Part shown: piece by piece, positions 61,308 through 63,311 of the stretch
Layout: each line of letters opens with the position of its first letter
Position numbering within the stretch: the stretch's first letter is position 1
Origin: Halonotius pteroides
Lineage (GTDB): Archaea; Halobacteriota; Halobacteria; Halobacteriales; Haloferacaceae
Direction: 5' to 3'
DNA length: 64,000 bases
Assembly (NCBI RefSeq): GCF_003605635.1
Contig: NZ_QMDW01000007.1
Span: forward strand, 1 to 64,000
The notes under the pieces: generated by a model
Seen by the model: only the letters and a program-made list of their open reading frames with translations
Databases searched by the model: none
What the model was told of the DNA's origin: nothing
Position numbers and translations under genes: made by a program

Positions 61308-61532
61308 ATGAGCAATCGCGTCGTTGAGGGCCGCATGGTCACCGCCGAATCGCTGGCCGAGTTGATCGAAGGAGAGTCGCCGATGGAAGCGACCGAGATC
61401 GAGGATGCTGACCGCGAGTGCCCGGACTGTGGTGGCAACGTGTTGGAGGTTGGCTATATGCCAAATGTCACATCGTTTGTCACCGGCTACAAGTGTCAGG
61501 ACTGTGGCTGGCACGACAGCGAGGCTGAGTAG
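61308..61532 (+). CDS. DUF5795-like zinc-ribbon protein
   Basis: 74 residues. An acidic helix (MVTAESLAELIEGESPMEAT) then a zinc ribbon CPDCGGNVLEVGYMPNVTSF, TGYKCQDCGWHD with two CxxC pairs. It resembles haloarchaeal DUF5795. Function unknown. CTTATTAG box at 61291, close to the ATG. Lies 70 bp before tRNA-Trp. Confidence 0.75.
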   Translation: MSNRVVEGRMVTAESLAELIEGESPMEATEIEDADRECPDCGGNVLEVGYMPNVTSFVTGYKCQDCGWHDSEAE

Positions 61533-61602
61533 TCACCCCTGGCTGTGGGTTGGCGATGCCGACCGAAACCCCTTTACTGTGATCCGGGTAAACTGTTGGC
61601 GA

Positions 61603-61781
61603 GGGGACGTGGCCAAGCCAGGCATGGCGACTGACTCCAGAGGCCACGCGCCCGGGACGACACTCCAGACTGATATGCCGAGCGACCGACTGATCATCGG
61701 TTCGCAATGACGACCCTCTGGAGTTCCGAGGCGCGTACCGGAGATATCAGTCGATCGGGGGTTCAAATCCCTCCGTCCCCA
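61603..61781 (+). tRNA. tRNA-Trp (anticodon CCA) with 105-nt intron
   Basis: 5' exon 61603-61640 (acceptor GGGGACG, D-arm, anticodon stem ACTGA and loop CTCCAG with CCA at 61637-61639). 3' exon 61746-61781 (A38, TCAGT, T-arm GGGGG-TTCAAAT-CCCTC, acceptor CGTCCCC, discriminator A). The acceptor, anticodon and T stems pair perfectly apart from one G-T. The intron follows G37. Decodes UGG. Confidence 0.95.
61641..61745 (+). ncRNA. tRNA-Trp intron with box C/D 2'-O-methylation guide
   Basis: 105 nt. A bulge-helix-bulge forms: CTCC (61635-61638) pairs with GGAG (61740-61743), with 3-nt bulges cut as AG^A and AT^A, and the stem is closed by ACGCGCC/GGCGCGT (61646-61652, 61730-61736). Candidate box C TGATATG (61671-61677), C' ATGACGA (61707-61713) and D CCGA (61726-61729). 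The guide CCTCTGGAGT (61715-61724) is complementary to the loop region and places C34 five bases from box D; CGACTGAT (61687-61694) pairs with A38-G45 around U39. This is the arrangement known from Haloferax volcanii; D' is degenerate and unclear. Confidence 0.85.
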
Positions 61782-62362: not shown

Positions 62363-62938
62363 CTAGAGGATGTACGATTCATTGTTGACAATATTGTTTG
62401 GGGCTCTGAACTCCTTGTATGTCGTCCCACCGTCAGGTGCGATCGCAATGAAACGAACCTTCGTCCGCTCCTCAAGATGGCTCACCCCCTGAATCGCGGT
62501 CAGATTAAGCCGAGTCGTAATAAGATCTGATTGATCCGATAAGGTGCTGGTGCCGTTGTCAGCCAGCCCCTGTACCGAGTGGTAGGAAACGCCGTCGCTG
62601 ACAGCCTCGTTGCCGTTGACGACGGTCGCGTTGCCGTTGACCTCTACGGTGTAGGAGGCGTCGCTGAGATTAATCGGATCCGAGCCCGGTGTCAGGCGCA
62701 TACTAATATTCAGCACGTCGATGTCGCCGTTGTTCGTTGTCTCCTCGCCGATGGCGTGTTTGATCTGGATGACGTTGCTGACCTCAGCGGTCGTTTCCTC
62801 GCCGGTGGCCTGGGCTTGAGCCTGCAGCAACCCCGCGGTATTGATCAGGACGCCCGCCGCGATCGCCGCGACCAGCACCATCGCTATGAAGACGATGAGT
62901 GTCCCGATCCCAACCTGACCGCGAGCCCCGTCGGACAT
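62363..62938 (-). CDS. archaellin (flagellin)
   Basis: 191 residues from the ATG at 62938. Class III signal peptide [17 protein letters not shown], cut after Gly by the prepilin-like peptidase FlaK, then hydrophobic helix [20 protein letters not shown] and the archaellin body ([20 protein letters not shown]). Several Asn-x-Ser/Thr sites (NIS, NLS, NAT, NGT, NLT) may carry N-glycans. The frame extends 35 codons upstream, but those residues do not look archaellin-like. Single copy here, not in an arl cluster. Confidence 0.92.
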
Positions 62939-63311
62939 AGTGTGACTTTGCCCACCCAGAACAGGTGCAGCGTTACCTGTATCTGTAATCAGGAACGCAT
63001 TAAACATAGGCTCGCAATTATCAAATTTAATACTAAGACGCAATCTCGACCGGAGTCAGCTCCGATCTCAACTTCTTTCGACCCGTTAACGAAAGTTAGG
63101 CTGCAGATTCTTTCGTATGATTCTGCCCGGTGCCTTGGGACGCACCGATATATCAGAACGTTAGCATACTGTGACCCACCGGCTGTTGTGGGTGCTGGTG
63201 GGTCGTTGGTCGTCGCCGTCGATTCCGAGGGAGAGATTTTAGTCGGCGGCCGACAACGATCTGATATCAGTACACCGACGGCCGTTGTCGGCCGTTGCAT
63301 CGCACCAACCA
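62939..63311. other. 373 bp promoter region with a hairpin
   Basis: Intergenic region between divergent archaellin and AAA ATPase genes. An 8-bp inverted repeat GACCCACC (63173-63180) and GGTGGGTC (63197-63204) has a 16-bp loop. An AT-rich stretch at about 63002-63045 probably carries the archaellin promoter. No protein-coding frame supported. Confidence 0.45.

Follow-up and report, generated by a model that had tools for sequence, protein, structure and literature searches.

The window, a 64,000-nucleotide stretch of DNA from Halonotius pteroides, contains a tRNA-Trp gene whose intron carries the elements of a box C/D guide RNA. Just 5′ of this gene lies a gene for a DUF5795 protein (61308–61532, forward strand; PF19108, E = 1.1e-42), and downstream, on the opposite strand, an archaellin gene (62366–62971, reverse strand; PF01917, E = 2.3e-30). 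The features of the locus, with what each assignment is based on, are as follows.

61564–61576 (+): probable BRE/TATA promoter, CGAAACCCCUUUA (conserved upstream columns)
61603–61781 (+): tRNA-Trp(CCA) gene, exons and intron (Rfam RF00005, E = 3.8e-08; cloverleaf pairing parse)
61603–61640 (+): 5′ exon, ending at G37, with C34 at 61637 (exon–intron parse)
61639–61641 (+): 5′ bulge of the bulge-helix-bulge (BHB), AGA (A36 G37 / A), with the 5′ splice site after 61640 (fold; conserved helix)
61641–61745 (+): intron of 105 nt at the canonical position 37/38 (exon–intron parse)
61646–61652 (+): 5′ arm of the terminal stem, ACGCGCC, pairing with GGCGCGU at 61730–61736 (sequence; paired region of the intron fold)
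61654–61660 (+): box C, GGGACGA (among 226 distinct sequences, 120 GGGACGA and 96 GUGACGA)
61662–61669 (+): anti-guide, ACUCCAGA, a copy of the anticodon loop able to pair with the D guide (fold)
61669–61676 (+): D′ guide for U39, ACUGAUAU, pairing with 61744–61751, that is, the last two intron nucleotides and A38–U43 (scan; covariation)
61678–61681 (+): box D′, CCGA (132 CCGA, 81 CUGA, 10 CAGA and 3 CGGA of 226)
61682–61706 (+): hairpin joining D′ and C′ (covarying inner pairs)
61690–61696 (+): apical loop of this hairpin, CUGAUCA, in which UGAUCA is self-complementary (class conservation)
61707–61713 (+): box C′, AUGACGA (class comparison; covaries with D′)
61714–61725 (+): D guide for C34, CCCUCUGGAGUU, 12 nt, of which 61715–61724 pairs with A31–G37 and the first three intron nucleotides (whole-intron scan)
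61726–61729 (+): box D, CCGA (223 CCGA and 3 CUGA of 226)
61740–61743 (+): GGAG, pairing with C32–C35 (61635–61638) in the 4-bp BHB helix CUCC/GGAG (226 of 226 relatives)
61744–61746 (+): 3′ bulge of the BHB, AUA (A U / A38), with the 3′ splice site after 61745 (fold)
61746–61781 (+): 3′ exon, starting at A38, with U39 at 61747 (exon–intron parse)

The tRNA-Trp gene and its relatives

The Rfam tRNA model scores 61603–61781 at 46.4 bits (gathering score 29), and no other match was found in the genome. When ARAGORN was run on the window, the gene was absent from its list, which presumably reflects the intron. Folding of the precursor gives the standard BHB with two 3-nt bulges and the 4-bp helix, and the gene folds better than all of 200 dinucleotide shuffles (z = -3.66). 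The 4-bp helix is complete in each of the 226 distinct relatives (220 with GGAG, 6 with GGGG), and of the two outer pairs, examined in the same relatives, the pairing covaries in seven (GA/UC) and is one pair short in six. The preliminary description of the window, made from its letters alone, had proposed a tRNA-Trp gene with an intron that fits the BHB rule exactly, and this is borne out by the Rfam match, the fold and the conserved helix. A gapless count of terminal-stem pairs gave 1–6 of 8 and is uninformative because one base separates the stem from box C. In 196 upstream regions, conserved columns lie at about -39 to -27, where a loose promoter pattern was found in 139 and a strict one in 89, and CGAAACCCCUUUA at 61564–61576 is probably a BRE/TATA promoter.

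The gene is widespread in the class, being matched in 389 of 391 genomes at E ≤ 0.001, although at least two of these matches (in G187 and G389) are fragments of the 3′ arm, and the genes of G310 and G346 are broken or partial. From the 340 loci collected, 330 were parsed as exon–intron–exon. The ten unparsed loci (L048, L120, L129, L219, L220, L226, L246, L250, L270 and L300) include chance matches that are bacterial by their titles (L226, L246 and L250) and, as judged by eye, other tRNA genes (L219 and L220). Removal of 18 outgroup loci and of L298 (N) from the 330 left 311 class rows; since these include some genomes twice, counts are given on the 226 distinct sequences. Similarity searches supplied 174 of the 226, and the other 52 were obtained only via a pattern scan (among the matches listed) that fixes C′, the D guide and D, so that conservation at these three elements is partly built in. 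Locus L343 stands outside the 226, and L201–L218 are counted separately as the outgroup, comprising the 18 regions parsed out of 20 that were chosen, among the matches listed, by similarity of their exons to those of the window in 241 genomes from outside the class. Named records among the matches listed include Halobacterium salinarum, Haloferax sulfurifontis, Haloarcula vallismortis and Halorubrum species, and on this basis the class is taken to be the Halobacteria.

Several individual loci deserve mention in their own right. The introns of L117, L118 and L121 (genus g69) measure 195, 195 and 158 nt and those of L113 and L196 (genus g47) 128 nt, the added length being hairpin-like sequence ahead of box C and the guide core being unchanged; L165, from another g69 genome, has an intron of 109 nt. 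In the draft genomes G310 and G346, tRNA-Trp is broken inside or beside the intron (L129 and L120), possibly through assembly faults. Genome G058 has two tRNA-Trp genes (L108 and L130) with identical introns. A putative viral contig of 18.4 kb holds the end of an intron-bearing tRNA-Trp (L364:14300–14434), and 22-nt stretches identical to the tRNA 3′ end are found near the gene in three genomes (G007:C1:889308–889329; G183:C1:1886765–1886786; G286:C53:138769–138790 and 137076–137097), as expected of an integration site.

Boxes and guide segments of the intron

Box C/D RNAs have the consensus boxes RUGAUGA for C and C′ and CUGA for D and D′, and in a canonical archaeal box C/D sRNA about 12 nt separate C from D′ and likewise C′ from D. 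In the window, both C (GGGACGA) and C′ deviate from RUGAUGA, and CCGA stands in place of CUGA at D and D′, but such spellings are frequent in the class. The preliminary description had reported C and C′ motifs in place; C′ stands, at 61707–61713, whereas its box C was left unspecified and the one found here is GGGACGA at 61654–61660. The order C–D′–C′–D, with 12 nt from C′ to D, is present in all 226 distinct sequences with degenerate spellings; this order is imposed by the parser pattern, which no parsed class sequence failed, L298 alone having been dropped (N). The spacer between C and D′ departs from the canonical spacing, being 17 nt in the window and 13–22 nt in the class, against the 12 nt between C′ and D.

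The two internal boxes change together. We take the fifth base of C′ and the second base of D′ to be the 3b:3n pair of the kink-turn; this pair reads C.C in 132 sequences, U.U in 73 and A.A in two, and the bases are unlike in 19. Like pairs thus make up 207 of 226, compared with a shuffled mean of 114 and a maximum of 137 (5000 shuffles, phylogeny ignored). Both states occur within genus g39, with U.U in L094, L182 and L192 and C.C in L105 and L197, and the A.A pair is found in two families (L157 in f1 and L125 in f10). At the terminal C/D pair, C.C was counted in 223 sequences and U.U in three.

For the C34 guide, a scan of whole introns, free of any pattern, finds in 226 of 226 sequences that no other segment complements the 5′ splice junction as well as the D guide; all 10 pairs form in 182 sequences and 9 of them in 44, and the duplex includes three intron nucleotides. 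The fifth base upstream of D is a G opposite C34 in all 226, as the N+5 rule has it; the parser pattern imposes this G, and no parsed class sequence failed it. In three of the four sequences with G31 the D guide ends in GAGC, as it also does in one sequence with A31. A guide beside box D that places C34 at its fifth position had been read in the window by the preliminary description, and the class-wide scan confirms it.

In the naked-RNA fold, the D guide pairs not with its target but with the anti-guide copy of the anticodon loop, and this helix is strong. A swap test for covariation between anti-guide and D guide, on 68 distinct pairs, gave no significant difference (mean of -8.99 kcal/mol against -8.78 kcal/mol when swapped, the lowest swap reaching -9.03, in 1000 swaps). 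The helix formed with the CUCCAG copy is lost in L122, L125 and L200, and a few of its changes look compensatory (L081, L170 and L177).

The guide for U39 had to be reassigned. ACUGAUAU pairs with AU/AUCAGU across the 3′ splice junction, so that two intron nucleotides form part of the duplex; it ends one base before D′ CCGA, and its fifth base from D′ stands opposite U39. In the pattern-free scan of the 226 introns, no other segment of any of them complements the 3′ junction as well as this one, which forms all 8 pairs in 221 and 7 in five, and a CNGA box follows it by one base in all 226. The segment also changes with its target. Junction AGACCAGU pairs with guide ACUGGUCU in four of four cases, junction ACAUCAGU with guide ACUGAUGU in two of two, and junction AUAUCAGC with guide GCUGAUAU in 18 of 22, the other four forming 7–8 of 8 pairs; guide GCUGAUAU is also found with junction AUAUCAGU in 29 sequences, as a G.U pair. 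Watson-Crick pairs between guide and target number 1751 of 1808, exceeding the shuffled mean of 1700 and maximum of 1718 (2000 shuffles, phylogeny ignored). At N+5 itself, position 39 is paired as A:U39 in 201 of the 226, as G.U39 in 21 and as G:C39 in four. The latter four, L106, L124, L127 and L128 (families f5 and f11), have C39 in a pair with G31, and their D′ guide has changed accordingly. In the outgroup, all 18 introns hold a segment that forms 7–8 of 8 pairs with the same junction, and a CNGA box comes one base after it in 17 and two bases after it in L212; the junctions read AGACCCGU in 17 and AGACCUGU in one, and the best matches are AUGGGUCU, ACGGGUCU or ACGGGUCA. From C39 in the four class sequences and in the outgroup, Cm39 would be predicted instead of Um39.

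In the preliminary description, U39 was assigned to another segment, CGACUGAU at 61687–61694, pairing with A38–G45, with a D′ motif that could not be recognized. The complementarity exists: all 8 pairs can form in the window, as they can in 132 of the 178 distinct sequences that share its target, and in 190 of 226 no site matches A38–45 better than the hairpin to which the segment belongs. Nevertheless, the segment is the arm and loop of the covarying D′–C′ hairpin, it has no D′ at the correct distance, and it does not follow changes of the target: in all four C39 sequences it retains only 5–6 of 8 pairs, the loop still being CUGAUCA. Moreover, the hairpin is not the best site for A38–45 in 35 of 226 sequences, one more being unscored, and the 18 outgroup introns without exception carry their guide at the D′ place and not at the place of CGACUGAU; the only CUGAUCA in the outgroup, in L215, sits elsewhere in the intron, after box D. 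The comparison of target changes thus largely refutes this assignment, which is now very improbable. The predicted U39 guide is ACUGAUAU at 61669–61676, 18 nt upstream of CGACUGAU and accompanied by a plain D′ box; D′ appeared unrecognizable because the wrong segment had been taken for the guide. Conservation of the guide segments, on whose absence the preliminary description would have given up its reading, was found for the D guide and the real D′ guide, but what is conserved in CGACUGAU is the loop, unchanged when the target changes.

The D′–C′ hairpin and its loop

The hairpin that contains CGACUGAU is 23–26 nt long across the class and sits between the two internal boxes, where a short-connection kink-loop for C′/D′ is not found. 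Its inner four pairs are formed in 425 of 468 cells (117 distinct arm pairs), whereas shuffling gives 321 on average and 344 at most (2000 shuffles, phylogeny ignored). The arms drift, the inner 5′ arm taking 31 forms, but the loop is near-invariant: UGAUCA is present in 225 of the 226 distinct sequences, and in 173 of the 174 that were not fetched by pattern, and it is wholly unpaired in 225 of 225 hairpin folds. On the 311 rows, the loop reads CUGAUCA in 306, UUGAUCA in three and CUGGCCC in two, so that its commonest form has a frequency of 0.982, above boxes C, D′ and C′ and about equal to box D (0.987). Its distance from D′ is also nearly fixed, the 5′ arm having 8 nt in 302 of the 311 rows and 9 nt in nine.

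A search for the combined pattern of loop, C′ and guide was positive in 380 of 391 genomes, a count that may include chance matches elsewhere. Among the 11 genomes without the pattern, four have UGAUCA with an altered C′ (G113, G211, G021 and G129), two have UGGCCC (G001 and G007), G310 is broken, and G187, G314, G382 and G389 gave no full gene. The only genus with an altered palindrome is g24, whose loops read CUGGCCC or, in a third genome, CUGGCUC. These variants keep the pairing of the core four bases (GGCC, or GGCU with a G.U pair) and lose the outer U-A pair, and they thus neither prove nor exclude pairing between loops. The draft genome G632 has, beside its own CUGGCUC type, a second, partial tRNA-Trp with the ordinary CUGAUCA loop (L344, at G632:C292), perhaps a contamination. 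In L215 of the outgroup, the CTGATCA already mentioned is part of a palindrome in an insert after box D, a place not homologous to that of the halobacterial hairpin.

Three other partners for the loop were considered and rejected. First, pairing of CUGAUCA with the target A38–G42 is contradicted by the four C39 sequences, in which the loop is unchanged. Second, docking on GAUCG (45–49) in the variable region of the tRNA would allow five pairs, but by eye L035 (GACC), L124 (GAUU) and L190 (AAUC) differ there while the loop is constant. Third, pairing of the loop with the D′ guide would break in the 21 sequences with ACUGGUAU.

The self-complementarity of UGAUCA makes a loop–loop contact between copies of the intron possible. 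Alternatively, the loop may be a site for some protein or another RNA, its self-complementarity being coincidental, and we consider this slightly better than an even chance. Such a site would fit the conservation of the loop and its near-fixed distance from D′, as well as the loss of the outer U-A pair in the CUGGCCC and CUGGCUC loops of g24; the argument against coincidence is arithmetical, a random hexamer being perfectly palindromic once in 64, and nothing direct speaks against it. More speculatively, the hairpin might be a device for loop–loop recognition, by which an excised intron RNP or a pre-tRNA docks on the identical loop of another pre-tRNA-Trp and guides its methylation in trans. 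We regard this proposal as rather unlikely. If it were true, docking would explain the reported trans methylation and a near-invariant loop on a drifting stem, and also the presence of the hairpin in salt-in archaea and its absence from the 18 outgroup relatives examined. The term "kissing loop" was not found in the part of the literature that was covered.

Proposed action of the intron and its relation to known systems

Taken together, the intron is very probably a dual-guide box C/D RNA of tRNA-Trp, with C34 and U39 as predicted targets of 2′-O-methylation. In the proposed mechanism, L7Ae, Nop5 and fibrillarin would assemble on the C/D and C′/D′ kink-turns, either of the pre-tRNA or, once excised, of the circular intron, with C′/D′ closed by the hairpin instead of the usual short loop. 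The D guide (61714–61725) would pair over the 5′ splice junction, with A31–G37 and AGG, and place C34 for 2′-O-methylation, and the D′ guide (61669–61676) would pair over the 3′ splice junction, with AU and A38–U43, and place U39. Since both guide duplexes need intron bases and exclude the BHB, methylation would have to precede splicing; the guides may act in cis or in trans. The host genome encodes fibrillarin (PF01269, E = 2.7e-52) and a Nop protein (PF01798, E = 1.4e-36) side by side.

The intron of Haloferax volcanii pre-tRNATrp has reportedly been studied as a box C/D RNA by Clouet d'Orval in 2001, Bortolin in 2003 and Singh in 2004 and 2008. This intron of 103 nt is described, in the portion of the paper available, as guiding Cm34 and Um39, with methylation preceding splicing and in vitro work favoring action in trans, and its arrangement is shared by at least 29 archaea (PMC2584109). 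It thus resembles the window in the tRNA concerned, the position 37/38, the length (103 nt against 105 nt) and the two target sites, C34 and U39 being those predicted here, and the order of methylation before splicing derived from the anatomy of the window agrees with that account, as far as the available text of the paper goes (PMC2584109). A self-guided system for C34 and U39 of the H. volcanii type had been suggested for the window by the preliminary description, and guides, boxes, geometry and covariation support it for the predicted targets. The circular tRNA-Trp intron has been seen in H. volcanii, according to part of another paper (PMC7714728). In our sample, the intron of Haloferax sulfurifontis (L275) has 103 nt, equal to the length published for H. 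volcanii, and combines D′ CUGA with C′ UUGACGA where the window has D′ CCGA and C′ AUGACGA.

That the intron is spliced out while its guide is a relic, with C34 and U39 either methylated by protein enzymes or unmethylated, has very little probability. A relic would decay, whereas throughout the class the guides, the boxes and their geometry are conserved and show covariation; in its favor, H. volcanii remains viable after deletion of the intron (Joardar 2008, as related in the accessible parts of PMC4090602 and PMC7714728).

The dual guide read in the window has counterparts beyond the class. The outgroup introns (L201–L218) are likewise dual guides in which the D′ guide spans the 3′ splice junction, but they differ in a C39 target in 18 of 18, in the lack of a CUGAUCA hairpin between D′ and C′, in that no CUCCAG copy was seen in them, and in a C–D′ spacing of 12 nt where counted by eye. 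Set beside this outgroup by description only, Pyrococcus sR50 also combines a dual guide with a D′ guide across the 3′ splice junction, according to the part of the source available (PMC7994747). Free-standing archaeal box C/D sRNAs, which have a kink-turn and a kink-loop, share the two box pairs and the fibrillarin/Nop5/L7Ae machinery, as the accessible text of one paper has it (PMC3608112), whereas in these introns the internal C′/D′ is capped by the hairpin of 23–26 nt. They differ also at 3b:3n, since archaeal box C/D kink-turns favor U:U, as stated in a portion of the relevant paper (PMC5689011), and most of these introns have C.C.

The system is therefore already known in kind, and the window adds one case together with a corrected assignment of the U39 guide. 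Three points that we did not meet in the literature searched, of which coverage was partial and for which we claim no priority, can be put to test: the near-invariant palindromic loop, the prediction, for four distinct sequences from families f5 and f11, that the target is C39 and not U39, and the like-with-like change of the C′/D′ kink-turn pair (C.C, U.U and A.A).
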